DNA of 52,423 nt from assembly GCA_018398765.1 (NCBI GenBank), contig JAHBMJ010005930.1, forward strand, positions 7,501-59,923, given 5' to 3'. Below are positions 16,085 to 45,242 of the stretch, in pieces. The translations under genes were made by a program, and so were the position numbers. The stretch is from Chromera velia (lineage: Eukaryota > Sar > Chromeraceae). The notes below the pieces were generated by a model. It was given only the letters and a program-made list of their open reading frames with translations. It did not search any database and was not told the origin of the DNA. Positions within the stretch are counted from its first letter, which is position 1. Each line of letters begins with the position of its first letter.

Positions 16085-19000
16085 ATAATACCCCTACGGG
16101 ACATGCCGTAGCCCCCAGGGGTGAGATATAGGGTGAGAGCACTAAGAGGTGCGTCCATGATCGTAGTACATGCATGCAACAGGTTCCCCTTCCCATATTA
16201 ATATATGGTGCATGACAAAACCCTCAATCATGGTTGTTGGCTGCACAAAAGCGTAGCCGCGGTATCTGTAAATGCCGTAGAGGGCTGGAGACGACTGGAC
16301 AGGCTTCAAAACCGTTGAAAAGAAGAAATAAGAAGAGCTCTGCTATTAGATACGTCTGCTAATAAGAAAATTAATAACGTACAAGGACTTCGCTAATACA
16401 TGGTGTTAACGTGAATAAATGTGAAAGAGAAAATAAAATTGTAACCGCAGCAATACATTACTGATAAATCTTTAACAACTTTTTTTTGCTTATATAAAAA
16501 AAATGACAGTGCTCCCCACTTAAATCTACTTACATTTTTATTTTTTATTTACGGAGCCAATATATAAGTCTTTTACATACAGACACACACGTTTCTTTCA
16601 TTTACTTTCATTCATATTTTAGCCATTCTAGAAGTAGCATAGTAGCATATATAGTAGCAAAACATTATATACGCCTTCTATTACTAATACTAGTATCAAC
16701 TTGCTCTTTTAAATCATCTAGCTGTGACTGAGATTGTAAGCTAATCTATAAAATGTTTGAACACAACGTTATACAAGTCCCAAACTATATGCTTGCTACG
16801 CTTGCTGTATTAGTTGCTGTAGTTGATTGTGCTCACTTACTCACTCACCAACACACTTAGTCACTGACTTACTCAGTCTTACTGAGTCATTTTTGCTTTC
16901 TTCACTAATTCATTCACTCACTGTCTCACTTGCTCACTCACTTACTCCCTCATTTTCCCTGTCTCTCTTCGATTACTCACCCACATGCCCAAAGTTAACG
17001 GCTTCTATTAACACTCTCACATCCACATGCCCGAACGGCTTTTGTTCACACACTCGCTCTCTCTGTCTCTCTTCGTTTATTTCTATTTACCCACAGGCCC
17101 TAGCGGCTTGAAGTTCTGTTTACACACTGAGTCTCATTCTCTCTTAGTGACAGGCTGTCTCTATTTATTCAAGTACCCACACGCCCATGCAAATATCTTC
17201 TGCTGACATGCTTGTGCGAGTCCTTGTCCCTCTTCATTCACCCACACACCCAACCGGGTCCTGTTCACCTAGCCTGTTCACACCGGTTCAGACACTCGCT
17301 TTCCCTGTCTATGTTTATGCACCCACACCGTCATGACGCCCCAAACGGCTTCTGTTTACACACTCGCTCTCCATGTCTCTCTTCATTATTCTTCATTGAT
17401 TCACTGCATGAGGCCCAAGCGGCTTCTGTTCACACACTCGCTCTCCTTGTATCTCCTTGTCTCTCTTCATTCACCCACACGCCCAAACGGCGTCTGTTCA
17501 CACACTCACTCTCCCTGTCTCTCTTAATTCATCAGCAGGCCCAAGCGGCTTCTGTTCACGCACTTGATATCTCTTCATTTATCCACAGGCCTAGCCATAG
17601 GCCCGAGCGGCTTTTGTTCAATGATACATAATTGATCCCTCTTCATTCATCTACGGGCTAGTTCACGGGCCCAAACGACTCCTGTTCCTAGCTTCTGTTC
17701 ATATATTTATTCTTTTTGTCTCTCTTTCTTCACCCGCAAGCCCAACTGGCTTCTGTTCACATACTCGCTCTCCTTATATCTCCTTGTCTCCCTTCATTCA
17801 CCTACACGCCCAAGCGGCTTCTGTTCACACACTCTCCTTGTATCTCCTTGTCTCCCTTCATTCACCCACACGCCCAAGCGGCTTCTGTTCATACACTTGC
17901 TCTCTTTGTATCTCCTTGTCTCCCTTCATTCACCTACACGCCCAAACGGCTTCTGTTCACACACTCGTTCTCCCTGTCTCTCTTCACTCATCCATAGGCC
18001 CAAACGGCTTCTGTATGTTTCTGTTCACACACTTGATCTCTCTTCATTCATCCACAGGCCTAACCAGCGGCCCAAGCGGCTTTTTTTCAATGACACACAA
18101 TTGATCTCTCTTCATTCATCTACATTTATCCATGGGCCTAAGCGGCTTCTGTTCATATACTCGTTCTCCTTGTCTCGCCCGCACGCCCAAACGGCTTCTG
18201 TTCACAAACTCATACATACTCATAAACACGCTCGCTCTCTCCATCACGCCCAAACGGCTTCTGTTCACAAACTCATATATACATACTCATAAACACGCTC
18301 GCTCTCTCCGTCTCTCTTCATTCATCCACCTGTAGGCCTAAGCGGATTCTGTTACTGCACACACTTCCTTTTCATGCCCCTCTTTCTCCATGCACCCGCA
18401 CGCCCAAACATTCACCCACACGCCCAAACGGCTTCTGTTCACACACTTGCTTACCTAGCTTTATCCACAGGCCCAAACGGCTTCTGTTCACATCTTTTCC
18501 TCTTGAACTCACCAAGCGCTGGACCCATACGCGGTAAGCCTCTCCACAACATTTCAAAGCGAATACTACAGCATCCACAGCGACACACACTATATATAGA
18601 CAGTATTTTGCGTCCCAAATCCTCAAGTGGAGGTACTAGAAGGAAGTCGAGAAACCAGGTGCTGAAGAACGATAAGAGGGGCCAAGTAGAGAGAAAGAAG
18701 ACGGGCAAAAAGTTTTTCCTCTTTGTTAAGCACACTCAGTCGTGGTGTGGCTCACTCCTAACTCTGTAAGGCGGCATGTCTTAACTTGCCACTGAGTTTG
18801 GTAGCATAGTCAAACAACGGAGCAATTCAGAACAGCTTCACTTAGACGGTGAGCTTTATCGCCTTCCTTGAAAACTACATAGATGTTCGAATCTACGTAC
18901 AATTCCCCTCCATGTGTGTTTTTGCATATGTACCGATACATCAAGGTTAGAGGCATGTTCGTCATGCACGCGCGCTGTACATCGCTGTACAGTTGCCGGA

Positions 19001-19487: not shown

Positions 19488-22400
19488 ATGTCATTCTCTG
19501 CCAAGCCAAGCCCTGTTTCAAAGCCCTCGCACTCGCCAGAGGGAAAGAGAAAGACCGCATTCAACCTGCCTGAACTCGGAAAGTCTTTCCACGAGAACGG
19601 ACCGGCGACAACCGATGCAGTCAAGCCGCGAATCAAGAAGTCACTCACACGAGCTGTGGGGGCAGTAGACGATGACAGCCGAACACCAAAAGGCTCCTCC
19701 CCCCCCAGAAGTCCATCGAAGGGGCATATCGGCCTCGGGTCTGCTGGGGCGGCCCGCGGCTCTTCTCACAGAGTCAGCAGTGGTCTCAATGTGGTAGCAG
19801 ACCTCGAGAAGGTGAGAGCAGTCACTTGGAGCCAGGAGATCCAAAACAGTGCCACAAAGTGCGCGACCCACATTGACGAATTTGAGCATTTCATCTCTGA
19901 CATGGAAAAGATGAAGGTCTTCAGGTATAAGGGAACTCAGATGTCTGAGTACATTCGGTTGCAGAGGGAGGTGAGCGCTGCTCTGCACAGTCTCAAACGT
20001 CTTGCGGGTGCAGAGAATTCGACAGGGGGAAGGAGTCCTGACTCGGCCTCTTCCCCTTCCTCCCCCAACCGCACCGCCTCCCTTCTTGTGCGGTCCCTCG
20101 TTAACCGTTTCAAGGACCTCATTGCGCGGTCCAAGTGCCACTGGGACAGTTCCACCCGCACCCTGTATAGCGCCATGTACAGGGACGAGGGGGTTCGCAA
20201 CCAGCTGCCCATCTCCTCAATTCTGCAGAGACGCAAGCAGGGGGGGGGGAAGGAATCTCAGGGGGATACATTTTGGACCGCGGTGATTGCAGACCTGGGG
20301 GCAATGCAGTACGAACACCTGGCAGACAGTGGGAGTGCAGAGGAACTGGACGACCTGTGTGAGTACGACGAGAGCATAGACTTCGACAGCAGGACGCCAG
20401 TTAGCGAGGGGGCTTCTCCAGCTGCTCCTATGGTCAGTCTGTGGTGGTGTGTGTGTCTCTCTCTCTTTCTCCTCTCAAAGGGGGCGAGGAGGAGGCAGAC
20501 AGGACCGGGTCTCGAAGGAAGAGAAGAAGGAGGAGAGGCTGGAAGAATGGAAGGCAGACATTGGAGGCAGACAGGAAAGGAAGAACGAAGAGAGAGAGGA
20601 GGGAAGGGAAGTATGGGGTGATTGAGGGTGGGCTACAGTCAGGCAGGGAGAGCGGGAAGAGATTTCAGTGCAGACTGTTGTGTGATTTGCATTTCTCTCG
20701 TTCTCTTCCACTTCTAGCAAAACGAAACTGCCAAGTTTGAGAGTTCCGTTCCTCGGGAAACACCCAGTGACTTCTTTTAGACACCAATACAGAGAACTAA
20801 AAAAATAAATAAAGGAGATACAGATAGAAAGATGATACAGAGACGTTTGAGAGTACCGGTCCTCCCTCGGGATGTTTCCTGCTCTCTCCATGAAACTTTG
20901 CATTGACCCCCAAAACGGGCCGGACCGACAGAGAGTCGAAATAGAAACGTCTTCTCTGCTCATTCATCATCTCATCTCATCTCTGCGCATTGCATTTCCG
21001 TACAAAAAAGGTGTGTGGGTCTGAATTGATTGTGCCTGCAGACGGGAGAGAACACGATGAAAAGTCGCAAGAGCAACCGGTCCTTCGGTCAAAAGTCCAA
21101 GGACGGATTGAGTGACGACGACTTCGGGTCCGAAAGCGACTCCTCGAGTGTGGACCCTTTCAATTCTCCCAGACTGAAGGAGATGATGGAGAAACTAGGA
21201 GACCACGGGGAGGACGGGGGGGCCCGCAACTCGGGGTCGGACGATGCAGTCCCGAATCTCAGCAGCTTCGCAAACAGACTCCAGGTCCGTCCCCTCTCTG
21301 CCGTCTCTCGCTCGCTTTTGTTCCGTTCTTCTTGCCGTTGTGTTGACGTCTGAGAGACACCCAAAACCTGCGACTGGGGGGACAGGCCTGCATGGCTGGG
21401 AGCCCGTCCTTTTGCTTTCAGGCCGTGTATGCATTTTCTTTCATGAAAGAAAAAGAATTTTGCATGAAAGAAAATGCCTGCATGGCTGGGGGCCCGTCCT
21501 TTTGCCTTCAGGCCGTGTGCTCTGACAAATCGAAAATTAAGAGACCTAGTGTCGCAATCGGTTTTTCTGCTCTGCCGCTTAATTTCATCCTTTGACCTAG
21601 GATGCTACCTACGTAGCAGGATTTGTGGAGCTACCGAAAGGACTTTTTTGAAAAGTGCATCTCTGAAAGAAGGACTCTGTCTCCCTCGATCGAGTCTTCT
21701 CACGTCTGTCTCTTCGTTGTTCTTCTCCCCCTTGCTGTTTGTTGCTTTTGTTTGTTCAGGAGATGGTCTCTGAGAAGGAGGAGGCCATCGAGCGTCTGCA
21801 GGAACAACTAGATCATGAGAGGACTCGCGCAGACGATGTCACAAAGAGAGGTACGACTGTGGAGAAGGAACTGAGGGCACATCTCTCCAGACTGCGTGAG
21901 CAGCTGTCAGAGCAGACGGCTCTGCTCAGACGGCTCACCAGAGGATCTGTCTACCTCCCCCCCCCCTCCGGCTCGGCAGAGGTCATCAAAGCTCTCCGTG
22001 CCCCCCCAGGAGACTCCATGCTACCCGCCTCCGCTCTTCCCGCCTGGGGCCCCTCCAACGCCGCCATGCCTCGTCGCCTCATGCGCTTTGCGTTGTGCAA
22101 CGCCGAGCCTCCCTCTTCCTCCGCCTCTGTTCCCGCAAGGGGAAAGGACACGCTCACCAAATACCCCTCTGAGGTTGGACCCTTCGTGTTGGACCAGGAG
22201 TTGGACGTCAACAATAACGCCACCAAGGACTCAAATGCCCGCAAGGCAGCCGCACAGTGGGTCGTCAATGGGGCGGGAGTGCCCGTCAGGGCCCCAGCAG
22301 CAGCCGCACACTTCGCACGGGAACGGGCAGAACTCCTCGCTGTCCCCAGCCTTCGGCGTCCGACCATGGGCTCGGGGGGAAGTGTCAGGACGTCCCCGCG

Positions 22401-23753
22401 GGTGTTGAAGGACAACAGTAGCATCAGCCACAGTGTCACAAGCCCCCTTGCGCGAGGGCCCTCTGCCGCCTCCCCCTCGAAGGGAGGCGTTGTCCCCCCT
22501 TTGAACCTGGCGGTATTGAAGAAAGGAGCCGGGCCGTCGTTCAACACCACACCCAAAGCAGCAGACGCGGACAAGGACCGAGTGGCCCCTCTGCAGCTGC
22601 CGACTGCTGGAGACATCGAGAGGGACTGCGAGCAGATCCTCTCTGCTGCCGAGAACACTCGTCGTGTGTCAGAACTGAACCTTGTCTCATTGGCGTTGCA
22701 ACAGGAACTCAAAAGGTTCGCTTCTTATTTTGTGTTCATTGTGTTGTGTTGTGAAAGGGAACGTCACAGGGGAAAACGCGACGGTTTCTTTCTTGCGGGG
22801 CTTTGGAATTGGAAATGCTCGTATGCTGGCCCTCCCTCCTCATTTCTCTCTACTTCCTTTTTTGCACCTGGATGTTGTTGCTTTTGTTCGATGTTGTATT
22901 TTGTTGCTTTTGGTTGCGCAGCATTCAAAGAGAAGAAGGAAAGGCGAGAGGCAAGGAAAGAGGACGACTGGAAGAAAACACGGGAAACCAACAAAACGAA
23001 GTTTCAATGAATACGAAGAGAAGAAAGGAAAGGCAATTAAGAAAGGAGGAGAACACAGAAAAGTCGGAGGATGTCGAGGAAGGCAGGAGTGAGAGCGAGG
23101 TTTCGTGTGTATTCTGGTCCTTCTATGCGTGCAGAGCGGAAGCCCTCTCTCTTCTTGAGGCAGAGAAGGGAGATCAGCGAGCTCTGCGTCTTCAGGCAAA
23201 GAGACGGCAATCGATCCAGCAGGGCATCACTGCAGCCTTCCAGTCGGCCTCCAAAATTGTGGGGGCGAGTGGGGACAGGCCGAGGAGGCGTTCTTCTGTT
23301 CTCAGCAGTATTCCCGACAGTGAGCAGGTCTCGGCAGCAAGGATGATCACGGTCTCCGGTTCGCAGCTGGACACAGAAGGGGAGGGCATCTCGAAGGTCG
23401 ATGCTGCGTTGCACGATAAGGTCATCAAGCTGCAGACAGACCTGGCGGCAAGCAGAGCGCAAATGGATGCGCTCCTGAAGCTCCACGTCAGTCAGGAACT
23501 CCTGTTGACTCTGGTTTCTGTACCCAGTGATGTTTTCACGAAATCTGATCGACCCTTTTTCGAACTTATTTGTGCCCCCTGCAGTATTGCAGCAGGGCCT
23601 CCGCATGCCTTGCTGCTGTTGCCGTTGGGATCGCGCGATGTTGTCTCTTTCCTGTCAATTCTTTGTGGGAACAGAAGAAGAAACCCTTTTGCAGAACGAA
23701 TCATCCGCTCTGGCACATCTATTGTTCTAAACCGCCCTCCTCTCCTTTCCGAT

Positions 23754-23787
<34 letters not shown>

Positions 23788-26700
23788 TGTCTCTGAGCGT
23801 AGAATTCTTTCTCAACCCTCCTGGATGTGCGTGTCTGCAGTCTTCGGCCGTGTCCGAGTTGAACGAGCTCCGAAATCGCAGCACAGCAGAAGGTAAAAGA
23901 GAGCGCCCCAAACAATTCGTGTGCCGGACTGTCTGTTTGCTCCTGCTTTTGAATTACCAATCAGGTTGACCTGCAGGCACCGGACAGACCTAGACCACAG
24001 ACCTAGAATCGTGAGGAAAACCCGTGTGTATAACTGGATGCGTGAATGGATGGATGCATGGATGGATGGATGGATGGATGGGTAGTTCGAGCCCCACAGT
24101 GGTCATCCTTCTGCTCGGCTTTTCCCTTCCGAGCCTCTGCTCAGTCCCTTGCCAAAACAAACTTTCAAGGCTTCCTTCCGGACGCGCGTCCTTTCATCTT
24201 TCTTCCTTTCTCCCGTGCCACCATCATACGTCCCCTGCAGCCAATGGGAGTAACCCGACAAGAAAGAAAAATACGCCCGGCTGAATTTCGCGTGCTTTAT
24301 TGACCTCTCTTCTTCATGCCAGTGCGTCATTCTACTCTCTCTCTCTCTCTCTCTGTCTGTTTGCAGGGAAACAAGTCTCTTACCGTCACTTCCACACCCA
24401 TTCCCACAGCACCCAGATCGTCCCAGTGCCCCCACACGCACCCGCCACTCTCGCAGCCTCCCTCCCCAGCCCCCGGTCCGTGCATGGGGGTTTCGGAGGT
24501 CCCCCTGCCCCCCTCTCGGCCTGTGTGTCAGCCGTGCCCAGCCCTCTGAACTCCCAAAGGGGGGGGATTCTGGTCTCTCCCAGGAACATTCTCTGTCCCC
24601 CTGTGCCTCGGAACTCGCCCAGGTCTCCTGAGGCAATCTCCTCCTCACACATTCAGTCTCAACCTGCGCTGCCTGTGTCAGGACGGACGCGACCTTCAGC
24701 AGGTCAGAAAGAAGGCGTTGTGGGTGCGTGGAGGGGAGGGGATAGGCTGAGGGGAAGGAAGTCATGAGTGCGCATGTTGCCTGTCTCTCTCTGTTCACTT
24801 CTTCTCTTCTCTTCTCGATGCATTCTCCTGTTTGGATGCTCTGATCAGCTTCACCTCCAAGCCTGCCACCCTTATGGAGTCATGACCATGCGCGGATTTC
24901 TGAAGAGCGAATTCCCCTTTCTCTTGGTTCGTTCTAGCTCCTACAGAGGTCTGAGGTCTGACATTCTTCTTCTTTCTCTATCCTAGACTCAACGTCTATT
25001 TTACTGTGCTGAATTGTGTCAATGCTTCTTTCTGCCTTCCCTCCTTCAATGCAGCGTGCTGCGGAGCTACAGGAGAGGATGCAGGGCCCATCAATCCAAC
25101 GGGAGTGCGGCACCCCCACCCGAACCTGACCAGAAGTCTCCCCACAAGGGGGCACCTCCTGGCTGCCTCTACTCCCGAGGGCGGGCTCATCAGCTCCCCC
25201 AGCAGGGTAGACACTGTCGTGCCTGGCCCGTCCTTGCAGGTTGCTGCTGGACAGCCCCCCCCTTCTGCACTCACCCTGACTCCCTCGGTGATCAGCATCC
25301 CCCTGCCGCATCCAATTCGCTTCAACCCCCCCCCTCGGGAGACGATCCCCCTGCCCCCCCTTCTGCACTCTGTCAACACTTCCGTCACGCAGGAAATCCC
25401 CCATTCCCCTGTCGCACGGGCCCTCAACGCCCAAGAGAGAGAAAACGCCATGCAGAGGAACAAGGAAGCGGAAGCAGAAGCAAAACCAGCCCCCCTGAAG
25501 CCCCTCTCAGAGATTTCTGTCGACTCTTCGGGTCAGAGGGAGAGGGAGAGGGCAGCTGCCAAGAGGGCACAGGGCAAAACAAGCGCAGGGGCTACAGCGA
25601 CCTCAGCTCCTCCCTACAACAAATCAGGGAGTCTAGGTGTCTCCACAGGGTCCAAGCCTAGGCCCCCCCGCCCGATAGTCTCTGGTCGAAGTGGGACTTT
25701 GGGTCTCTCTTCTCAAGGCACTAGGTCGAAGCTCAACGCTTCCTTCGAGGATAAAATCCATGCGCAAGCACGCGTAGTCACTCACTGGGATGGCAAGCTT
25801 AGGACCAAGGCATCCACTACAAGGCTTGGAGGAGGAGGCAGCTCGTCCTCTCTGAAGAACAAAGGAAGTTCAGCCTCCCTGAAGCCGAAGAAGACCACAA
25901 CGCCTGTCAAGAAACCTACCGCTGCCAAGAGCACGCTGCCCAAACCCAAAACCCCAGCTGCCCCTTCCAACTCTCCTATTTCTCCACTAAAGGTCGCAAA
26001 GAGGCCTGCCGTCTCCCCAAAGGCTCCCAAACCCGTCATTAACGTCATCAAGACACACAGCGACCAACACCTGGGAGGATCCCAGGGTCCCTCGGGGGAG
26101 CCGCGGATTCACACCACACGCCAACCCGCCACAATGAGAAATCAAGACACAAACCTCCTCAGTCTGCCGAAGAAAAAGGGAGCACTCAAGAAAAGGACCG
26201 CCGCGTCAACATCACAAAAACCAAAAAGCTCAGTCATTCTGGAGCCCCCCGAAGTGGTCGACCCGCCCGTCTCCCACCAGGCAGCAGCAGCAGCATCATC
26301 TAGGTCTGTGTCGCGTGCAGCGGCTCATCTGACCTCTCGAGGACAACCAGAAAACATGGGAGTACCCAAAGAAGCGCGAAGAGCCGTCCCTGGAGCAACG
26401 AAGCCGTCAAACGCCCGAACTGCAGGAACAGCACGTGCCTCGGCAGCCGGCCCGACTTCAAAGCTTCAGGATATCGCTCCGGTTTCTCTGTCTGCGCCCA
26501 CACCTGCTGCGAACAAGGCAGGTGCACCCCGAGGTCCTTCAGGTGCAAGCTCGAGGGCGCCCCCTGCAAAAGAACGAGGGGAGACGGATGATGTGAAGAG
26601 ACGGCAGACGGGTGCGACGGGATCGGCAGGTGCCGCACCAAAGGCAGTAGAAAAGAACCTGCGGAGATTAATTGCAAAGAATGCGGAGGTGATTGCAAGG

Positions 26701-26946
26701 AATCTAGAGAATTGTTCCAGACCCGACCTGGGGGGGGAGGGTGGAGCGGGTATGGGGTCCCTGCAGCAAGCGGCAGTGGGAGCAGCAGCGGTCTGTTCTC
26801 GGCCCAGGCTTATCCCCCCTGGGGCGTCCCCCTTCTCCAATCAGGGTCGCACCCCCCCTCCAACTCCCACCCCCAGGCTGGGGGTTCCTTTGTGCCCCCC
26901 CGTGAGCATGCAGGCTACCTCGATCGTCGGCTCTCCTGATCGATGA
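19488..26946 (+). CDS. large hypothetical coiled-coil protein, 7 exons, 1591 aa
   Basis: Exons 19488-20432, 21042-21284, 21760-22715, 23135-23486, 23841-23892, 24367-24702 and 25055-26946 join with GT-AG borders (donors such as GTCAGT, GTCCGT, GTAAAA) and consistent phase throughout, giving 4776 nt with a TGA stop. ATG 19488 opens the first exon; no upstream coding extension is evident. Residues 1-315 are Ser/Pro-rich with a helical block (VVADLEKVRAVTW to RLQREVSAALHSLKRLAG). Residues about 397-455 form a coiled coil (EKEEAIERLQEQLDHERTRA to RLREQLSEQ). Exon 4 adds a second helical segment (LSLLEAEKGDQRALRLQAKR). The last 630 residues are basic, Pro/Ser/Ala/Lys-rich and probably disordered, like many cytoskeleton-associated proteins. 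No known domain is recognised. Intron 2 holds a palindromic insert with a 42-bp flank duplication. Confidence 0.75.
21387..21518. mobile_element. palindromic insert 1 with 42-bp flank duplication
   Basis: The palindromic core at 21431-21477 (GCATTTTCTTTCAT to ATGAAAGAAAATGC) lies between two copies of a 42-bp segment, 21387-21428 and 21477-21518 (CCTGCATGGCTGGG to TTCAGGCCGTGT, two mismatches). It is located in intron 2 of the seven-exon gene. Confidence 0.85.
23753..23787. repeat. (GT)n microsatellite
   Basis: Pure GT run inside intron 4 of the seven-exon gene. Confidence 0.95.
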
Positions 26947-28699
26947 AGGAGGGAGGGAGGAAGGGATGGAACGACGGGGAGCCGCTGGATGGATGCATAT
27001 AGGCGGGGGGGGGATCGAGTCCTTCCTTGCATGGGAACTGTACGCAAAACCACACTGACTGCATGGAAGGAAGTGTTCGTTGCGAGTCCATGTTTGTGCC
27101 GTGTCTTTTTTCTTGACCGTCAATCCATCCATGAGGAATCTGTCTGTGTTGCAGTTTCTCCTTAATTCTGTATGTTTTCTCTTTCTTGCATGTCTCGATT
27201 TTCAGGTGAGAGCGCTGGACAGATAGAATGGGGGTAGGGGGCGGTATTTCGTATTCTGTGAAGGACCAGCAGTGCAGCTCCATGTTGACGGTTGGGGGGT
27301 TCTTTGGGAATTGAACTGAGTCGATCATATTGATGAAAGTCGTGCATGCAAAGAAGAATCAAAACACAAAAAAGAACGAAAAGACAATGACCCAAATGAA
27401 AGGCACGTACATGAATGAATGGATGCAGAAAGAAAGAAGCTTAAAGGGACTGCATGCAAAGGTGGCAGGGCACAACGTAGAGTTCCCTTAATTCCCTCAA
27501 ATGAATCCACCCACCCATTTATTTTCTCTCTCTTTTGCATGTCTACACGTTTTCTGATTCATTCACGCTGCATTCATTCGTTTTCATTACTGGGTGGGCA
27601 CAGCCAGTCAGTCAGTCAAGCTAGAGACTGGATCTCTCGCTAATTCGGCACCTCCTTTGCCTCCTTTGCTCTCATCGCCCCCCCCCCCTTCCTAGCTTCT
27701 TTGTTTGTCTGTCTGTACAGTACGCAGCCTTCCTGCATGGCCTCTGGCAACCTGCCTGCACTTGTAAGTGCCCTTCTCTGACTTATCCCCCCCCTCTTCC
27801 CCCTTTTGCGTGAGGACTCGTCTTCATTTTAGGCTTACACAAAGAAGAGAAGCACGTGTATCTGATTCGTCTCTCGATCTTGCCATCGTTACCTGCGAAG
27901 GGAGGGAGGCTGCGACAGGATAGGAGAGACACGTTTGCACCGTTTTCTTCATTCCATCCTTCCTTGTGTGTTTGTAACCTTATAACCTTGGACGTTTGCA
28001 TTTGCTTCTTCTGCCTGCATATCCTTGATCGGGAAGGGCTTCTTCCTGCATCGCATCTCTCAAATAAAATGGCGGGCCTGCATCTGCGTGTGCGTGTGTG
28101 TGTGCGTGCATCCACTGTGTCGCTCTTTCAATTTCGTTGATGGCCGTAGAGGGGGGAAAGGGAGGGGGGGGACCTGGACCTGACGGCTGACTTTTGAAGC
28201 ACAAAATTTAATTGCGTTCTTTCTGCATGAGTCCGTTTGTTCTTTCTACCTCTGCATGTGAAGAAACGAAAGCGAATTCGAGATGGTGTCTCCAGGAAAT
28301 GCATGCAGTCCTTCTTCCAGACGTCCAGTCAAAACTTTCCAAGAAAAAACTTGATGGGTATGCCAAAAGAGCGAGTCAGATTTTCTTGCAACCGGTGGAG
28401 GCCAATGTGAGACTGTCACAATTGAAGAATTGAAGAGAGGGTCTGGTGTTTGATTGGATTGTCCAATGGGAGAGCGGTCAAAGTCACGCAGTGTGTGGCA
28501 AGAAAAGAGCGGATTGTCAACAGACAAAACTCCTACAGGGCTGCCCGAGTTCAGGTTGGCACGGACGAGAAGTCGCAGCTGTGACATATGTGCAAATACC
28601 TCTATCAGTAGACATCTGACCTTTCCCTTCTCGCCGGCCAGCTCAAAGCCGTCAAATTGAAAAACATGCACATAAAAAAAGACTGAGGGAAACCTTGCA
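26947..28699. other. intergenic, no supported gene
   Basis: This is the 3' flank of the seven-exon gene. It holds short GGAT, C-run and GT-rich tracts and short open frames on both strands without coding character. A TACAG followed by GTAAGT 44 bp later (27719-27767) could be a small exon of a 3' UTR; that is not supported otherwise. Confidence 0.5.
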
Positions 28700-29430
28700 C
28701 CGACAACTAGATCGCCTGCTTTGGTTCAATCAACCTATAATGAACCCCTATTGATAAGTCATCATACCACTGCGGCATTGGCACCCTTCACATTATAATT
28801 ATTTCAATTCCTAAATTCTTTAAATTTTTGTATAAAAAAACAATTCTTGTAATTTATGTTTGTTCAATGAATTTTAATTAGTAACTTATCAATTTTTGTT
28901 AATTTTCTAGAGTTTAAACTCGGACTTTAATATAATTGATTTGTATTAGGTTTTGATTACACTATATGGTTAGAAGTAACTACCAGAGGGTTTGAGGGTA
29001 GTCTTGTTTACAATAAATTTTGTAACCGACGATTGGTAACTAGCAGCTAGTAGTCAAGACATCGTCCAGATATGCGGCTTAGCTTTCAAGACACCGTAAA
29101 TGATCCGCGCTTGCGGCGCGGACTTCTAAGCTCATCCAAAAATGTGGCTTGAACTTTCAAATGATAGTTAGGTCCAAGGAGCCTTGAAGGAGGTCTGCAC
29201 AGATATGCACCCTGACCATATTATTTTATGATATAAATCATAAACCAATTGCTGACACTATAATTCAATCTCACCGTTTTGTTTATTGTGAATTACGTTT
29301 ATCACAGTAGTATGATGCTATATAATAGCATTCATTTTGATTAGACAGTTTTCTCCCACTTATACAATGCAATTATGATACAGAGGAGCAGATCATCAAA
29401 AGCACTTCACAGAATCACATTTGTCTCTGC
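28700..29430. other. AT-rich stretch, no gene seen
   Basis: Composition drops to roughly one-third GC. A diverged pair of segments (GATATGCGGCTTAGCTTTCA near 29072 and AAATGTGGCTTGAACTTTCA near 29139) suggests an old duplication. It could be an old inserted element; no ends were found. Confidence 0.4.
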
Positions 29431-29436
29431 ATATGC

Positions 29437-34783
<5,347 letters not shown>

Positions 34784-34823
34784 CTGCAAACACATCCATC
34801 TGCAAGCGCGCGCAAACACACAC

Positions 34824-34845
34824 ACACACACACAGCGAGAGGTCA

Positions 34846-34881
<36 letters not shown>

Positions 34882-34886
34882 ACATA

Positions 34887-34926
<40 letters not shown>
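34824..34926. repeat. (CA)n microsatellite
   Basis: CA run interrupted by GCGAGAGGTCATCA and by CATACACA variants; GCGACAGGTCATCACACGTG follows at its end. Confidence 0.95.
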
Positions 34927-34927
<1 letters not shown>

Positions 34928-35183
34928 CGACAGGTCATCACACGTGACAGCTTACTGAATTCACGTACCGCTGAGACCACAAGAGGGTGCATGCCTCGCA
35001 CCAACAGTCAATCGGGGGCAAAAATTGAAAATGTATCGCGATCAACGACAGGCAGAGAACGCAAGCCTGCCCTAGACCAAATTTTACGCAAACCCATCAC
35101 ACAACTCGGCCTTGTCGCACCGTGTGCAGGAGAAGAGAAAGCAACGCCTGTGAGCTATTGCCTATGAATCATGATGGACTGAC

Positions 35184-35246
35184 CTTTGCAAGAGACCGCC
35201 AACAGACAGCCCGGCAGTCCATCGTGAGGAAGTCTGACGCATGCTC
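35184..35246 (-). CDS. candidate exon, 21 codons
   Basis: The minus-strand segment has a TTCTTGCAG acceptor and a GTCAGT donor, phase 0 on both sides, encoding EHASDFLTMDCRAVC and on. It uses the same donor type as the neighbouring minus-strand exons and is probably an upstream exon of the gene ending at 29437. The phase does not connect directly to the exon at 34783, so one exon is missing or this one is wrong. Confidence 0.4.
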
Positions 35247-35788
35247 CTGCAAGAATTCATTCAAACAGGCAGACAGGAAGACAATGAAACGAGGCAGGGT
35301 GTCCCTCCCTCGTCCTTTTCTTCTCTTTCCCTCCCACGAATGGGGATCTTCTCCCATCAACGGCAGAAGCAATGAGCAGAATCAGAGAGGCCTGCTGGCA
35401 AAACAAGAGAGGAGGGACACACGCCGGCAATGAAGTGAGAAAACACAGAGTGACACACACACAAGATCAGAAGAGAAGGGGGACATGGTGGCAAGTGACG
35501 CACGCCTCGAGACTTCCGCTGGGGTGAGACAGGGGAAGGGTCAAACAACCTCAGTCAGTCAGCGAGGCAGGTAGACTGAGAAGAGATGCGGGGATGATGA
35601 AGAGGAAGGTCGGTTTGGGGGGGGGCACAAAGAGGTTTGAGAAAAGAAAGAAGACAGGAAGGAATATTTCTGGAAGAAGAAATAAGCACAGAGCCAACCA
35701 AGCCCGCAGGAGCCGACGAAAAGGGTAGATCCTCAAAGAGACGGCTACGCACTCCATCCAAGGGGGCTGGCTCTTCCCATGCACTGAC

Positions 35789-35854
35789 CATAAGAAATTG
35801 GTCTTCTTTCGCCGACCAGTCGAAGGACTGTGGGGGTTGGGAGTTCTTGGAGAT
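35789..35854 (-). CDS. candidate exon, 22 codons
   Basis: Minus-strand segment with a CGCACGCAG acceptor and a GTCAGT donor, phase 0-0, encoding ISKNSQPPQSFDWSAKEDQF and on, with good coding character. Likely an upstream exon of the membrane-protein gene or of a separate gene. A start codon was not identified. Confidence 0.45.
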
Positions 35855-35899
35855 CTGCGTGCGAGGGGGAGGGGGCAGTGTCAGATGCGTATTGGGTCG

Positions 35900-37041
35900 C
35901 AACATGTGATGGAATCCAGCCAAAGAGGGTGTAGTGCAACAGTCAGACTGGCCTTCAAGGAGACGGCACTCCGAGGACGGGAGTTTGATCGTATTGGAGG
36001 GACATAGGCCCCAACCGGACTCAACCAGAAAATGATAAGGAAGCGAACAACGCAGGACGAAAGGAGAGTCATGGTCGTGCCGGGAAAATGGGGGGCCCTA
36101 AGATAGATTCGATTAATTCACGCAAAACAAACAACTGCAGATGGCGGCACGGCAAAAAGGAGGCACTGTTTCACTGTTGTTCGTCTCTGTGGAACCATCT
36201 GACAGACAATGTTTTCGGTTTTCAGTTGATCATACAGTGAATAAAGCTGTCATGAAAGATGCTCTGATTGTCTCTCTACATAATCTCTACATAGCTCTTC
36301 TGACTGAGGGACGGCTGTGGGATGTTGTGGCTTTGCAGTGAGCGTTCGGCACATTCCTGTCTCCTTCTTCCCTTCCGACCGGGCCCCGGCACACGCATGC
36401 ACTAGCTACATGCATATATTGCTGAGTTTAGGGGGCCCGCCCAAGTAAGTTCTGCATGCAGGTTCGCGCGCTCCTCGAGCGAAAAGTGGCTATACATATA
36501 TATAAAAAGAAGAAAATTAACATATATATATATATATATATATATATGCAATCGACGTCGCTCGATCGGTTGTCGCAGGTGTGGACATGTGCTTTCTTCA
36601 ACTAGAGGGCAAGGAAGCAATTTGAATCGATGCAGCATCGGGTTTGCTCTGACAAGACACCGGAACTGTAGAGAAACTTAGCCAGGTCTTTTACTTCGCA
36701 TTGAACAATTAAACCGGAAGCGGATTGTACATTACTCATTGCGAAGCTGGAGTGACCTTTTTGAGACTGAGTTTCCCTTAGAATTCTTTCAGGAAGTCCA
36801 TCAAAGACATGTCTGCCAACCCAAGAGCTGCCCCCTCGGCAGCAACCAAACAACGGAGGGAGACGATGAACACACGGACACGGACTGCCGGACAGTTTGC
36901 ACTTCCAAAAAATGAGGTCGGTGTTGCCGTCAGATGGTGATTCTGTCTGAGTGCTTACCGTTTCCCTCTTTCGCTGGTGGCACACAGGCCCTCTGCATGC
37001 ATGCCTCTTGTTCGGATGCGTGCGTCACTGCGTGTGTGCAG
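35900..37041. other. intergenic, possible 5' part of the EF-hand gene
   Basis: No gene is firmly supported. The EF-hand gene needs at least one upstream exon ending in phase 0. An ATG at 36141 followed by AARQKGG is one unproven candidate. A (TA)n run lies at 36521-36547. Confidence 0.4.
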
Positions 37042-39160
37042 AAAGGAGGGATTGTGATCGACCGTGATGAGTTGAAGGTCGCATGGGACTTCTTCGACGT
37101 CAAGGGAGCAGGGAAGTTGACAGTGAACGACATCAAGAAAAGGCTGTCGGTGTTCTACAAGAACCTCTCGGTCAAGGAAGTCAGGTAGGTGGGTTGGGAG
37201 GACTGTCCGTCCGTCTAATAATGTCTGCCTTTCCGTCTGGGCTCTTTTTCGGTCGATCACTTGGGTCTATATACGCGTTCATTGAATGCATGCAAGCGTT
37301 GCTTTCGTTTACTGTTGCTCACTACCAGGCTGAACTTTGGCTGAATCGCTGTTGTCTCTCGTTTTGCCCAGTCACTCCATGCCATACGATTCGTGCCTGC
37401 CTGCCCGGCCTGCTCGACTGAATTGCATCAATGGATCGATCGTGCAATCAATCAATCAGGTTTCTGCTGAACAACCAGAACGAGATCACGTTCGACGAAC
37501 TGTACAACCTCCTGAAGGACAATCAGCTGACGAACTTCGACCCGGTCAAGGAAGCCTTCAAGGTGGGTGCGTGGGTGGGTTGCTGGAGTAATGGCTTCCT
37601 GCAGTGTTTGTTAGTAAGTGCATGATGTTGGTGGAATTTCGCATGTGTCTGTCTCTTCCTCGCTGGACTCATTGGGACACCGTTCGGTCCTCGATCGAAA
37701 GAGGTCTGACAGTTGGACTCAAATGCGCCGTCTTTCTTTCCTTCTGCGTGGTCTCTCACAAAAAAGAGAAGGAGAACAACAAGAAAAACAACAACAGCCA
37801 GAAGACGGAGGAGAAGAAGAAGAAGAAGAAGAAGAAGAAGGAGGAGGAGGAGGAGGAGGAGGAGGAGGAGGAGAAGGAGAAGGAGAAGGAGAAGGAGAAG
37901 GAGAAGGAGAAGGGGGAGGAGGAGGAGGAGGCGGAGAAAAAAAGGAAGAACAAGACGAAGCAGGGGAAAAGAAGAACAAGAAGAAGCAGGGGAAAAGAAG
38001 AACAAGAAGAAACAGGGGAAAAAACTGATGGAGGGAGGTCGAGGAGGAAAAGAAAGAAAGTGCGGGGGGCAGAGCTGGAGAAAGCGGAGAGCGGAGAGAC
38101 GGAGAAGAGAGAGAAGGAAGGGGAAAGGAGGAGAAGGAGAAAAAGAAACACATAGAAAGAGATAAAGACAACAAACCAAGATAAAGGAGAGACGACAAAA
38201 AAAAAAAAAAACATCAAGGGAGGAGGGAGAAGAAACAAAAGGGAAAGAAAAAAAAGAATGACTAGGGAGGTAAAGAGACAGACGGATGAAGTGAGGAGGT
38301 TCTCGGATGACCCCTCAAGCTTATTTGGTGCTGCCTGCCTGCCTGCCTGCATGCATGTTGGGGGTATCTGACCTCTCTTTGTTTTCTTCAGCAGGTCAGA
38401 CCTCCAACCCCTCTTTCCTCTCTCGCTCACGCTTACCGACAGAACTCTCCACTGTCTTCTCCTCTCTGCTGACTCAACATGGACTCATGCATGCAGGTCT
38501 ACGACCCGCTGGACACAGGGTTTGTGGACATGAACGTCGTGAAGGAGTTCTTCAAGAATCTGGGGTATGGGGACATCTCGGAAGACGACGCCAAGATCCT
38601 CCGTCAGTCAGTGGTTTGTTTTTCCTTCTTTTCTTTCTTTATTTATTGCGTTTGCATCTCAAATGAAGATGTGGAGATGGCCAGATTGTGGGAGCTGCAA
38701 GAGCAGCAAGATTGGATGTCCAACAATTGCTTCGGTCTAGCACTTCGGTCGCCTAGTTGCTATGGCGAGAAGAAGCAGGTCTGCATAGATAGATCCAGGC
38801 AGACAGACAGGGCTGCTTGGTCGTTGATGCCAGCTCCTTTCCATGTTTTGTTTCTTCAGCAAACATTTGAACACGCAGGCTTGCAGGTAGGGGGCTCGCT
38901 TTCGCAGCATGTGGTCGCATGAACTAATGACTATACGAGTCCATCAATCACTTGATGAGAGAGTGCTCTGATGAAGCCTTGAGCACCTTGTTCTACAGAG
39001 AATTGATTCCCATTCCCTATCCTCTTGCATGCATGTGCCGCTGCATGAATGAAAGAATGAATAAATGAATGCATGCATCCATGCAGTCCAAACGGCAGAC
39101 GCAGACAAGGACGGCAGGATCGGGTTGGAGGACTTCAGAATGATGGTCCCTTTCGGGTAA
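37042..39160 (+). CDS. EF-hand (calmodulin-like) calcium-binding protein, 5' incomplete
   Basis: Exons 37042-37184, 37460-37562, 38497-38602 and 39087-39160 join in phase (426 nt with stop, 141 residues) and start in phase 0 from an unseen upstream exon. Loop-like sequences appear in order: DVKGAGKLTVND (degenerate), a helical NEITFDELYNLL segment, DPLDTGFVDMNV (degenerate), and DADKDGRIGLED, a canonical 12-residue calcium loop with Asp at 1, 3 and 5, Gly at 6, Ile at 8 and Asp at 12. The pattern of four EF-hand-like units with only the last intact fits calmodulin- or centrin-related proteins that sense calcium. The end reads VPFG then TAA, but GGGTAAGT also looks like a donor, so a further exon is possible. 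A 45-bp copy of the end, stop included, lies at 39265-39309 behind a palindromic insert. Confidence 0.75.
37756..38250. repeat. long polypurine tract, (GAA)n/(GGA)n/(GGAGAA)n
   Basis: About 450 bp of almost pure purine on the plus strand in the intron between 37562 and 38497, with pure blocks of GAA, GGA and AGGAGA units. Long Glu-, Arg- or Gly-rich frames here are by-products. Confidence 0.95.
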
Positions 39161-39309
39161 GTGAGTAAGTGCATTTTCTTTCATACATCTTTAATATGTA
39201 TTAATTCTGTATGTATTGCATGTAATATGTATCAATAAGAATTCTGTATGAAAAAAAATGCATGGGAGGACTTCAGAATGATGGTCCCTTTCGGGTAAGT
39301 GAGTAAGTG
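39127..39309. mobile_element. palindromic insert 8 with perfect 45-bp flank duplication
   Basis: The insert at 39172-39264 (CATTTTCTTTCATACAT to GAATTCTGTATGAAAAAAAA) sits between identical 45-bp segments 39127-39171 and 39265-39309 (GGAGGACTTCAGAATGATGG to GTAAGTGAGTAAGTG). The left one is the 3' end of the EF-hand coding sequence. Confidence 0.9.
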
Positions 39310-39627
39310 GGGGGATCTCTGCATGTCCCTCTCTCTGTCTTTGTTGTGGGGACCCTTGCAATGAGCTTTGTGCGGCAGTAGTGACTCTGACGATTTGGCA
39401 GACTTGACAATAATGATGGCTTTCCAAATATTATCTGGGACAGGGCTTTTTGTCTTGCATCCACGTTTGTCTGCCAGGGTAGTTTTTGACTGTTTCATGA
39501 GAAGTGCCTCCGCTACACCCAAATTCTAGTGGATAAGCTCTCCACTATGTGCATCGACCCACCATGCAATTCAAGAAATGCAGCAATTTGAATTCCGGCC
39601 TGTCCTCTTATTCGTGTATAGACGCAT

Positions 39628-39634
<7 letters not shown>

Positions 39635-39690
<56 letters not shown>
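39635..39690. repeat. (AC)n microsatellite
   Basis: Nearly pure AC run between the EF-hand gene and palindromic insert 9. Confidence 0.95.
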
Positions 39691-39692
<2 letters not shown>

Positions 39693-39802
39693 AGCACGCA
39701 CGTACATGCATCTACATACCCGTACGGACATTTTAATCGTCCATCGATTCATCCACTAAACCACCCAACTGTTCATGAATTCACATCTGAAGTGTCCACC
39801 CA

Positions 39803-40023
39803 CGACGCAACCTCTCGATCGATGTGCCAGGCCTCTCACCGACATGCATTTTCTTTTTCTGTATTAATATTAATTCTGTATGAAAGAAAACGACGCAACC
39901 TCTCGATCGATGTGCCAGGCCTCTCATCGACATGCATTTTCTTTTTCTGTATTAATATTAATTCTGTATGAAAGAAAACGACGCAATCTCTCGATCGATG
40001 TGCGAGGCACCTCACCGACATAC
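39803..40023. mobile_element. palindromic insert 9, two copies in an 88-bp tandem array
   Basis: Flank copies at 39803-39847, 39891-39935 and 39979-40023 (CGACGCAACCTCTCGATCGA to GACATGC) alternate with two identical 43-bp inserts at 39848-39890 and 39936-39978 (TATTAATATTAATTCTGTAT core). The period is exactly 88 bp. The third flank has most of the mismatches. Confidence 0.9.
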
Positions 40024-40429
40024 GCAACGATTCGGGGAGGCACCCTCCATGAAATCGTGTCATTGCAGCAAGGAAATACACCCACCCCCCTGATCCATTG
40101 TTGCAGGCAACCACAACAAGGGGGTGGTGTGAGTGAAAAGTGATCAACGGGGACGCACACAGCTGAATGGTCACGCAAGTCCAACTCGACAGACAGAAGG
40201 TCATTTTTATGCCCGAGCCTTATATCAATACCGAATTTACTGGTGCAATTTATGCAACAATCGTCAAATCATGAGTGTCAAATAGGTAGCCCATACAGGT
40301 GATCACCCGACTAACTGGTTTCACGAAGAAAGGACGAAAAAAGACAATTAACAGTATGTCCTAATTGTACTCCCGTGGTGGCGCTCGAAAACAAAACAGC
40401 TGCTTCTTCTTGATCTCGTAAATTTACCT
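40024..40429. other. intergenic, nothing recognised
   Basis: Ordinary composition, short open frames only. Confidence 0.5.
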
Positions 40430-41397: not shown

Positions 41398-41699
41398 AGA
41401 ATAATTAGCCATGTTCAGTGGTTACATCTGGAAGAAGTCTGTTAATCCAGAGTCGCTATCTGGATAGAACGAAAAGTAATCCACAAGATTCAGAAAAGCA
41501 AATTGCATTCAACACGGAATTTAATCGACTCCGTGAGGCGTGCGCACAGCGCAACACAATCGGTTTGACAAAATTCGGATTTCCACGGTTCGCCTTGTGG
41601 CGGCGGTGCACACGGCGGCGGCTCACGCAGCTCTTTCTGATACGGCGGCGGTGCACACGGCGGCGGCTCACGCGGCTCTTTCTGAATGACACACTGATA
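41398..41699 (-). repeat. 3' LTR
   Basis: 302 bp; contains a tandem pair of roughly 42-bp units rich in CGGCGG (41607-41690). Confidence 0.9.
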
Positions 41700-41810: not shown

Positions 41811-44033
41811 CTATTTTGTAAGTCCATCAGCAAGCTGCTCACGTTCACCAGAAACATGCTGAAGCTTCACATTCATTCCACCAAGTTCCTGTGCACACCA
41901 CTTCAGAATTCCTGTCAATCCTTGTTCTTTCTTGCTGACACCCGACTCTGTCTGACCGAGGGAAGTCGCACTGTCCGTGAACATACGCACACTCAAAGAA
42001 CGAAACAGAATTCGAAGAGAACGGACAAGGAGCGGTAGTCTTTTCAGACCAGCGCGGATAGCAAGCAGCTCTCCACCAGGTGCTGACAATACTAGTCGCT
42101 TCTCTCTATATGTGGCCCAATCAAGAATGTTAAGCCAACAACGCCAATTCCAGGATCGATCAGCAAGCTGGATTATCAAAGCAGATCGAGCACTGCACGT
42201 TTTCCCCCTGAATCCACTGTCAATAAAGATTCGCAGTTCGGCATCAGAGACCGAAACAAAAACAATCTTTTTCGGGCGTGCTGCATACATTCGGATCAAA
42301 GTGATGATGACAGCAAGATGTCTCTCTGTGGGTGTCTTACTGAATGCCGCTAACTCACTTGCTGCAAATGCCAAATCGAAACGAAGACGAGCGAGCCAGG
42401 CCAGACGACCAATCCATTTCAAGTAAGTCCCCTCCAAAGTCATGTCAATCTCCTCCGGTTCTGGAGGAGAGAAGTCGCTCTCAACGACCACTCCACTTGC
42501 CTTTCCTTTCGGAAGAGATGAGAGAAAAACATATTCGTTCATTCCCTGAAAGATGCGATCGTCCGATCTTCTCACATCGAAGCCGACTTGCTTTTGAGGC
42601 AAGTCAGTCAGCAACTGAGGATCGTCTATCTCAATTGGTCCCTCGCGTGCAATCTTTCTGAGGGTAGCAAGAGGGTCGGCAGACATGAGTGCAACATCGT
42701 CAACATGCTTGGAGAGCAAACCACCAACCTTCACGTGCTTCACTTGTGTGATCGATGCGTCATCTTATGTTGGAAGAGGAGGAAGAGAAAGACCAGAACG
42801 AACCAAAATAAAAGTACTTTCCATCAATTCAGACCATCGAAGTCGAATCAACACACAAAAAAGAAAACGAGCAAAAATCAAAGGTGCGTCCTTCAATCCA
42901 TACGCAGCTGCCTTCAAGATATAGACAGCTCCAGCCTTCAGACCAAGACAAAGAGCAGCAGGAGGGAGCCACGCAGGCATGCGCACACCAATGCGTCCAA
43001 CCGATGATGGGAGAGGCGCTTGAAGAAACGCACAAGTGATATCAGCAAAAGCAATCTGCCAGCTCATCGACAAAGCAAAAACAAAGAGAATGCGAATCGA
43101 AAAGACGGCTGGCATCCCTGCATAAATCTCGACAGTCCGACGATCGAAAAACTTGTTGCCTACCAAACACAGGCGCGCTTTCGCTTTTCTCGCTGCTCCT
43201 TTCACAAATTTCCAAGTCAGAACCCAAGTCAAAGGAATGATTGTTAAGAGGCTGTACGTCTCGCTTCCTGCTTTCACCTCCTTTCCATACGCAGAGAAGC
43301 GCTCCCACTTCTCCATCTCTCTATCTCCCGCTCCGTCAAATTTCCCTTCCATCACCTCTCGCTTGTCTGCCTGCACGTGTGTCTTACCTATCTCGTCTGA
43401 ACTATCCTTCTCAAGACAAGAAAGCTTTCTATCATGTCTTGTCTTTGCTTTCGCTGCTGTCTGAACTGAGTGCCCATGACAAGGAAAAGAAAGAAGATGG
43501 GCAGTGCAAACACTCTCTTCATCACATGAAAAGAAGTTGCGGGGGCGTCTGCGATCATTCTGAAGAGAAGAAGAGTCAGAACTGGAATTGGAACTCTCTT
43601 CGCGAGACGCTGAAGGAGCCATCTCGGAGGAGTCAGGACCAAAAAGTTCCTCAAAAAGAGCAGAAAGGTCGGATCCTTCTGCATTCTCATCTGGCTGACC
43701 AGCAGGAGCATGCGCTGGAGGATCAATCACCTGAACGATCGACTGAGGAATTCTCTCTGTCTCTCCGTTCTTCTCCAAATTGAAAGGATGCATCAGACGG
43801 TCGGGCTGAACTTTCTGAGTGTTGTTTCTGTCTGGAAGCCCGAGTTCATACCCTATCACTTCCCCTCCCGAGTTTTGGTGAATGAGCGAAACAGAAACGA
43901 GACCAGTGGGTGTCTGAGACATGCAACGAACAGGATGAAACACACCGTTCACAGAAACAAGAGCACAAGAAAGGGAAGAATCAGCAGGAAAATTAAAAGG
44001 ATTCACCCCCCCCCCAAAAGCCCCCCCCCCCAA
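41811..44033 (-). pseudogene. pol: copia reverse transcriptase and RNase H
   Basis: The minus frame 44033-42765 continues after one TAA into 42743-41811 in the same frame. RVT_2 family motifs are visible: WKFVKGAARKAKARLCLVG, YAGMPAVFSIRIL, ADITCAFLQAPLP, LKAAAYGLKDAP. After the TAA come LLSKHVDDVALMS, the catalytic box of the YVDD type with His for Tyr, and WIGRLAWLARLRFDLAF. The RNase H part has RMFTDSATSLG and ends in REQLADGLTK, a usual copia C-terminus. These enzymes copy the element RNA into DNA. His at the YVDD position plus the stop make activity very unlikely. Confidence 0.85.
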
Positions 44034-44057
44034 TGCAGCCCCTCCGTTCAGTGGTGC

Positions 44058-45242
44058 TTACGTTTCCTCATCAGAGGAGAACTCATGAACGACTGTCTGA
44101 GAAGGACCTTGGATGGAGGGATGCATCGTACCGCGCATTCGAGAGACGACAAAAGACCAGAGGCCCGACTGAGTGAAAACACCAGGAGTCGCATGCTTCA
44201 CGTCCTTCGTGTTTGTCTTGACTGCATGAAGCCAGCGAAAACGAACAGTGCACCACTCAAAAACAACACATTCAGCTCGGGAAATTCCAAAAGCAAACAC
44301 TCCAAAACAACCATGTGGACGAATGGACTTAACACGCTTGGTGGGAGAAAAAACAACGGGATCACCAGGTATGAAAGTGATATCAGGCACCCTTCCTGTC
44401 GTAAAGCGTAACGGAGATGCTTTGCGGTACGTGGCAGTTCTGTTGTAAGACCGTTCAACAAGAAGACAGAGAAGAGGAACAAAAGAAAGAGGAAAAGCTC
44501 AAGTTGCAACCAAAGAAATCATTCCCGCCCGCAAAACGGTCCACCACTTCTCCGTTGGCCCTCGAGAAAAGTTCGAAGCGAAAGGACGACAAACAGTCCC
44601 CGCTCGATTCAACACAGTCCGAACGTCCCCTTCTAGGATGCCTTTCTCATTGTCGGAACGAAGCAGCTTGAAGGCTCCATAGTTCAGATTCCATTCGTTG
44701 AAGAATGGAAGGAGGTCCTTGCCTGCCCTGGAGGGTGTCGATCTACACTGCACAAGGCCAGTGCGAAGGTCAGTGGTGGTAAGAAAAATCAAAGTGGAAT
44801 AGGGAGTAGAACCGTAGACGGGATCAAGATCAGACAAAAACATCAAATCAGTCTAACCCTCATCAAGAAAAGAAAGAGGAAAAGAAGAGTCAGGGTCGGA
44901 AGGATCTCTCGATTGAAACTTTCTGTTCACTGCATGCACCCGGGGACAAGAGACACACCACGGGAGCGCAGCTTCAATCTTTCGTCTGGGGATGGAAAGG
45001 AAACGAATGTTGTTTTGTTCCTTCCAAGTGTCGATTAGCCGGGAAAGAGAAGGTTGGATGTGTCTGTAATGCTGCATGAGGATAGAGTTTCGAACAGACA
45101 CAGGCACACGTGTCGTGTCAAGCACGAACGGACCAGAGGTCTCGCAATGACCCTTGCGATTTGGACCTTGTCGTGTGGGGGCAGCAGCAACACGCTCTAT
45201 GGAGGGAGAGACCTGTGAGAGAAAAGAAGAAATGAAATGCAA
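44058..45242 (-). pseudogene. pol: copia GAG-pre-integrase and integrase
   Basis: One minus-strand frame with stops TAG at about 44850, TGA at about 44497 and TAA at about 44055. First segment: a zinc-finger signature with two His in LMQHYRHIQ and a WCVSCPRVH Cys pair. Second segment: the integrase core with FLSDLDPVYG, KLLRSDNEKG and a GPTEKWW Glu fitting the D-D-E triad. Third segment: the integrase C-terminal part (VERSYNRT, GDPVVFSPTKRVKS, GCFGVF). It inserts element DNA into the genome. The frame runs on into the reverse transcriptase after the TAA; GTAAGC at that stop could alternatively be a donor, but decay is simpler. Confidence 0.8.

Follow-up and report, generated by a model that had tools for sequence, protein, structure and literature searches.

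Short inserts between long flank duplications in Chromera velia as possible micro-retroposons primed from both ends of staggered breaks

Introduction

Among the closest described counterparts of the inserts reported here is the twin or dual priming of L1 elements, in which both 3′ overhangs of a break act as primers and inverted cDNAs come to lie between target-site duplications, in some cases with microhomology to the target and a poly(T) run on one side (PMC2837659); the inserts of Chromera velia would share these traits. Dual priming by two RNAs has been postulated for L1 (PMC2837659). In L1, two-ended priming is a variant behaviour of kilobase-long elements, whereas in Chromera the two-ended copying of a ~40-nt 3′ end appears to be common. 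The duplications of such LINEs are generally 10–20 bp (PMC6895275), compared with an average of 40 bp in Chromera, and an involvement of L1 is not implied.

Very long duplications from widely spaced nicks are a likeness to R9 and related RLE LINEs; R9 makes a stagger and duplication of 126 bp, and the LINE reverse transcriptase is capable of template jumping (PMC6895275). A sequence-only reading of the DNA analysed here had put the duplications of retroelements at up to about 20 bp and had held long ones to be undescribed, which is too strong in view of R9 (PMC6895275). R9 is specific to rDNA, whereas the Chromera inserts are dispersed, have flank duplications of 17–67 bp and show no coding element. 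SLACS reportedly makes a 49-bp duplication.

Introners are spliced as introns and carry short duplications, in which they may differ from the Chromera inserts. Both are short elements spread in the genes of protists (PMC9860276, PMC7789003). Patch-mediated break repair also yields a duplicated flank from opposite-strand nicks; unlike the present case, no family-specific insert is described in the available part of that account (PMC8355091). Among the titles and opening lines of abstracts of the top papers listed in literature searches we found no description of such inserts in Chromera, which is no proof of absence; in the main text of Woo et al. 2015, as far as available, 'palindrom' and 'introner' occur 0 times (PMC4501334).

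Results

We analysed a stretch of 52,423 nucleotides from a C. velia contig (the window). Read directly, all nine sites noticed in the sequence-only reading hold a short insert with arms like GCATTTTCTTTCATAC between two copies of the flank, as had been described (Table 1). We refer to the direct copy of local flank as X and to the main insert family as P throughout. X at site 4 is 32 bp, for which 19 bp had been given. The arm has 28 matches in the window at ≤3 mismatches, against 0.63 expected and a maximum of 3 in 100 shuffles. By eye, X of site 8 reads like the end of a putative exon with a GTAAGT splice donor.

Table 1 Inserts and flank duplications (X) at the nine sites of the window
Feature	Position	Details
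X copy 1, site 1	21386..21428	43 bp; 95% identical to 21476-21518
Insert, site 1	21429..21475	47 bp, two arms
X copy 2, site 1	21476..21518	
X copy 1, site 2	30141..30179	39 bp
Insert, site 2	30180..30251	72 bp
X copy 2, site 2	30252..30293	42 bp
X copy 1, site 3	31008..31047	40 bp
Insert, site 3	31048..31121	74 bp
X copy 2, site 3	31122..31161	
X copy 1, site 4	32212..32243	32 bp
Insert, site 4	32244..32279	36 bp
X copy 2, site 4	32280..32311	
X copy 1, site 5	32587..32633	47 bp
Insert, site 5	32634..32732	99 bp
X copy 2, site 5	32733..32778	46 bp
Site 6, X-insert-X-insert-X	32972..33218	X 47 bp; two units, inserts 53 bp each
Site 7, array of six X-insert units	33466..34155	Left X cut by N gap 33280-33465
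X copy 1, site 8	39127..39171	45 bp, copies 100% identical
Insert, site 8	39172..39264	93 bp
X copy 2, site 8	39265..39309	
Site 9, X-insert-X-insert-X	39802..40021	X 43-44 bp; inserts 44-45 bp; two units

The genome-wide survey covered one assembly of 177.8 Mb in 4040 contigs, which is smaller than the 193.66 Mb in 5953 scaffolds of the C. velia genome of Woo et al. 2015 (PMC4501334). Arm GCATTTTCTTTCATAC had 1938 matches at ≤2 mismatches, against 149 for the reversed pattern. The insertions look strongly clustered in the genome: 22 of the 1938 matches lie at 21431-39981 of the window, which makes up 0.03% of genome length. We assembled 106 clusters from the window and from fetched loci (L numbers), the latter being the first places listed in the genome arm searches. 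Each cluster needed one arm with ≤1 mismatch; the sample favours exact arms, and sites 4 and 9 of the window (32212 and 39802) fall outside it by this criterion.

X reached an alignment score of at least 32 in 100 of the 106 clusters, compared with 32 of 11,130 mispaired left and right flanks (all mispairs of the 106). The top mispairs are pairs bordering N gaps (L030, L103, L113 and the window at 33.5 kb) or pairs within one locus (L099, window), and there is no N in any X. A first set of 72 clusters had given a maximum of 29 among 714 mispairs. X differs in sequence from site to site, which supports the earlier claim on this point, and accompanies nearly every sampled copy; genome-wide copies mostly lacking duplications, the finding that the earlier reading had named as contrary to its own view, are not what we see. 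Among the six clusters below the cut, L023 is an array with X of ~15 bp, L079 has X of ~17-19 bp, L118 merges two neighbouring sites with X at each by eye, and L030 and L103 adjoin N gaps. L063 has an arm, and X was looked for there and not found.

The length of X averages 39.5 bp (sd 10.5, range 17–67, n=100). The copies of a pair are 80–100% identical and 31 of 100 pairs are perfect, so the insertions seem to span a range of ages. Taking the outer X copies as given, 78 of the 100 sites have one unit, 12 have two, five have three, one has four, three have five and one has six. BLAST among the fetched loci showed inserts in common, together with a single common stretch of 187 bp; a filled/empty paralogous pair was not recognised in it.

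We then consider the inserts themselves. Both arms were recognised in 76 of 142 units, one in 64 and none in 2, with an anchor that allows 1 mismatch; terminal inverted repeats at both ends are thus not general, although arms that have decayed may have escaped recognition. A perfect even palindrome of ≥16 bp occurs in 10 of the 142. Left and right arms each follow the template for 18-40 nt. Their lengths do not correspond (Spearman -0.34, p 0.006, n=65 sites) and differ by ≤1 nt at 10 of the 65 sites, against 10.5 expected by shuffling, a mismatch to be read with the caveat that two arms in one short insert compete for length. Both outer arms are anchored at 66 of 100 sites (types A-A 38, B-B 7, B-A 1, one side unclassified 20). 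'Palindrome' fits only part of the family, the arms being often unequal or single. The earlier view of the palindrome as the inserted unit is not supported, given these independent arm lengths and one-armed units, and we disfavour a transposed palindrome because the arm lengths do not agree.

The order of the arms is regular. An inward-right arm ahead of an inward-left one was seen in none of the 142 units, although 76 hold both signs and 37 of these have at least three arms. Extra arms of the same direction restart with ≥7 terminal bases (one mismatch allowed) in 18 of 58 cases; array units of L001, L007 and L127 recur among the 58, which are not independent events. The other 40 carry ≤6 terminal bases, mostly after GAATTC or a T-run, and some of them may simply be deeper template. 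This order and these restarts would be expected of a polymerase that advances inwards from each end and jumps or slips while copying a short template. Deletion of the centre of an unstable palindrome after insertion could likewise make arms unequal, though restarts at the terminus do not follow from it.

Outer starts lie mostly within TGCATGC[A/G]TTTTC (145 of 165 anchored junctions), with inner extents of the same 18-40 nt. At these 145 junctions, the 20 outside the offset range having been dropped, target end and template start share a mean microhomology of 1.72 nt compared with 0.40 in shuffles, and this is seen on both sides. A purine follows the inferred nick at 148 of 199 ends, compared with an expectation of ~115.5 under the requirement that the base differ from the insert, and the preference is similar on both strands.

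TGCAG occurs inside X in 24 of 90 cases, 10 short X having been left out, compared with 8.2% of flank windows (p 2e-7, with 12 words tested). CAGG is mildly raised in X (p 6e-4), as are CTGCAG and CATG, and there was no rise of GATC, AGCT, GTAC, GCGC or TACCT in X interiors versus flanks. The bases upstream of YGCAG in X are pyrimidines at a frequency of 0.62 versus 0.52 in controls. On account of the TGCAG enrichment and the upstream pyrimidines we read X as overlapping 3′ splice sites, and its TGCAG content suggests that it may often do so, whether through targeting or through survival. Donor-like words show no enrichment (3 of 100 X versus 2.4%), which counts against this reading. If X often spans a 3′ splice site, the exon start could survive the duplication intact while the insert would become part of the intron, and introns could be reshaped in this way in a relative of malaria parasites.

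In part of the family, poly(T) stands directly before the arm and replaces its terminus (16 genome matches versus 0 for the reversed control). Among ten such loci read, T-runs of ≥10 abut X in six (L172, L173, L174, L176, L179, L180) and T-runs lie ≤2 bases from X in two (L177, L178). L174, L176, L177 and L179 are one-armed and have the order X-poly(T)-arm-X, the layout of a minute retroposon with a poly(A) tail. At these loci the control for X is weak, as T-runs align with one another: the 90 mispairs score up to 73, which 6 of the 10 loci exceed. In a further case, L084:1647, copies of a 42-bp X enclose AAT15A6. Within the 142 units, T-runs of ≥8 occur at 2 left and 0 right ends, and A-runs at 6 right and 0 left ends (three are units of the L109 array and two are mutated arms). 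A poly(T) tail beside the duplication is found only in a subset of copies. It may reflect slippage on the template's own A-run, with T-runs sitting where the arm has TTT or TTTT. The P template would be an RNA of ~40 nt, 5′-GAGCGCUCCCUGAAAAAGAAUUCUGUAUGAAAG followed by AAAAUGC or UAAACGC, with the predicted 3′ end ...UGUAUGAAAG(A/U)AAA(U/C)GC, also written ...GUAUGAAAG(A/U)AAA(U/C)GC.

A second, GC-rich family, Q, has the pattern (T)TGACGCACGCAAGGA..., taken from another insert in L009, with 417 matches at ≤1 mismatch against 27 for the reversed control. X scores ≥30 at 15 of 22 Q sites (X 18-56 bp), whereas 462 mispairs reach at most 24. Of the sites below 30 (L132, L136, L140, L143, L144, L145, L149), L145 is an array whose X by eye measures ~21 bp, L140 (28) and L143 (26) come close to the cut-off, and no X was seen in L144 and L149. 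The predicted 3′ end of the Q RNA is ...UUGCGUGCGUCAA. In L009, at 3522-3732, a Q insert recurs at an 81-bp period, a multiple of three; by eye the reading frame stays open, and the protein would gain a repeated peptide.

Long P and Q copies have a common centre, TTTTTCA-NNN-AGCGCT. A pattern for this centre led to a third family, R, a palindrome around GGGGCGCCCC. Long X was found at 0 of 7 R copies (L152, L153, L154, L155, L158, L159, L160); the repeats present are one of 13 bp in L158 and one of 20 bp in L154, the latter being the arm of L154 itself. R serves as a negative control, indicating that a palindrome as such does not bring X. We did not adopt a kinship of R with P and Q via 'TTTTTCA', R having been found through a pattern built from P and Q and being without X. 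In L152, L153, L155, L159 and L160 the R copy is a near-perfect palindrome, AATTAATTAGCTTTTTCACGGGGCGCCCCGTGAAAAAGC..., with no long flank duplication. Separately, L084 (395-549), L107 (847-1020) and L061 (164-316) hold AT-rich or mixed inserts without P or Q arms, flanked by duplications of 42-60 bp.

Discussion

We propose, at about even probability, that the inserts are micro-retroposons made by target-primed reverse transcription of a ~40-nt RNA from both 3′ ends of a ~40-bp staggered break. An endonuclease would nick the two strands ~40 bp apart and leave both ends with 3′ overhangs, each of which would serve as primer for reverse transcribing one type of short RNA from its 3′ end. The two cDNAs would be truncated independently, with occasional jumps or slips back on the template, and then joined; filling of the overhangs would yield the ~40-bp duplications. 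Copying from one side would give one-armed inserts, and arrays would result from later unequal exchange between X copies. The duplications and the spread of their lengths, the inward order of the arms, their unmatched lengths, the microhomology and the poly(T) at some junctions are features of the inserts as they stand. Here we infer the RNA nature of the template, the 3′ overhangs, the enzyme and the mode of array growth.

Two hallmarks of retroposons are seen, a target-site duplication of variable length and a constant RNA 3′ end opposite an end that is truncated to varying extents. The lengths of X scatter about a mode, unlike the near-fixed duplication of a transposase, which we count for retroposition. 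The widely staggered nicks suggested earlier fit the flank duplications. Counting against retroposition, we found neither a gene for a source RNA nor a full-length autonomous partner nor an enzyme, L063 has its arm without X, and the X-flanked inserts without an arm (L084:395, L107:847, L061:164) fit general gap filling. A search of the genome for RVT_1 gave 150 scored matches of 1759 candidates, 12 of them >700 bp and taken as LINE-like; P arms were not seen by eye in the one RVT_1 region read (L129, including 1526 N). A candidate autonomous element in C2883 (83324-88940) was ruled out, both of its ends being separate small inserts with their own X. CTTTCATACAGAATTCTTTTTC had 0 exact matches in viral contigs, which removed a viral source from consideration, and Rfam gave only matches below the gathering score, nearly all to miRNA models, in the window at 30000-40100 and in five loci.

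The main rival is repair of staggered breaks, which we consider rather unlikely. Here opposite-strand nicks ~40 bp apart would have their overhangs filled and the gap patched by a theta-like or NHEJ polymerase, with no dedicated retroelement; the patch would be drawn from abundant short palindromes, poly(A/T) and simple repeats, whose DNA would be copied or captured. Vaughn and Bennetzen reportedly described rice insertions with tandem duplications in 2014. The X-flanked inserts without arms speak for repair, microhomology and repeated short template slips suit an end-joining polymerase, and the window has plain two-copy tandem repeats without an insert, of 42 bp (30444), 45 bp (41599) and 45 bp (47523). 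In mammalian cells, breaks with complementary 3′ overhangs lead to small tandem duplications (PMC8355091). Against repair, X has a mode near 40 with no broad decay, and the insert ends are family-specific with the same terminus start on both sides. TGCAG is three times commoner in X than in flanks, a bias not expected of random breaks unless it arose through survival. The fetched loci hold five other plain tandem duplications, of 61-124 bp; the 42-45 bp ones in the window weaken this point, and we no longer count such lengths against repair, which lowers our confidence in retroposition slightly.

A non-autonomous DNA transposon or MITE, with the arms as termini, a transposase of ~40 bp stagger and unequal arms through decay of the palindrome, seems improbable. 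The arms look like terminal inverted repeats, both ends behave alike, exact copies of both 16-base arms stand ≤30 nt apart at 8 genome sites, and C836 and C2506 have a perfect TTTTCAGGGAGCGCTCCCTGAAAA centre. Transposases give duplications of near-fixed length, however, and X varies too widely (by the sd given above) for a fixed length. The single recognised arms, the rarity of perfect even palindromes and the unmatched arm lengths also tell against it, as does the lack of a longer element with these ends in the 106 clusters; inserts closed within the searched 140 bp, apart from L030 and L103, which border N gaps, and L063, which is without X. Ordinary tandem repeats, with arrays as palindrome-containing minisatellites and single sites as two-copy minisatellites, are very improbable and already largely contradicted: 22 of 100 sites do have two to six units and a few inserts show the same arrangement without arms, but one insert lies between two X copies at most sites, and the insert is common genome-wide whereas X is site-specific.

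Returning to retroposition from both ends, the combination seen here did not appear among the papers listed, and with moderate confidence we take it for a variant of retroposition with repair filling as its main rival. More tentatively, Chromera might possess a dedicated system in which ~40-nt small RNAs are written into both 3′ ends of breaks with ~40-nt overhangs, used by two or more families of RNA (P and Q, which have a 5′ AGCGCU-NNN-UGAAAAA motif in common) and favouring 3′ splice sites. Such a system, if real, would amount to a type of mobile element whose defining trait is priming from two ends and not a transposed unit. The arm copies in one genome, far more than 1000, record the priming and joining of the two ends of staggered breaks, a stage of retroposition that has otherwise been deduced from L1 variants that are uncommon.

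Other features of the window

The 42-bp two-copy tandem repeat at 30444-30526 starts with GCATGCA and is possibly X-X after loss of an insert. The two-copy tandems at 41599-41685 and 47523-47612, 6 kb apart, have nearly the same 45-bp repeat (GGCGGCGGTGCACACGGCGGCGGCTCAC...). On the minus strand, 48758-51689 holds ORFs that by eye resemble reverse transcriptase (DIKAFF..., GFPQGSPCSP), which we take to be its motifs, with a possible GIY-YIG-like stretch preceding them. Four RT-like ORFs at 48758-52343 had no Pfam match at E≤10, and a search for homologs of one of them gave none at E 0.001 among 512 candidates. Remains of a Copia-type retroelement lie at 41811-44846 on the minus strand, with an RVT_2 match in the ORF at 42765-44033. 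At 11118-14937, two partial Chromera cox1 copies stand between two blocks of a ~68-bp satellite-like repeat (CCCAAACGGCTTCTGTTCACACACTCGCTCTCC...; 8794-10335 and 16931-18492), and one of them carries a perfect 219-bp tandem duplication (11729-12168). One COX1-like frame of the window matches C. velia COX1 at 98% identity over 100% of its length, from which the genome is assigned to this species, and the region is either mitochondrial DNA in the nucleus or an assembly join.
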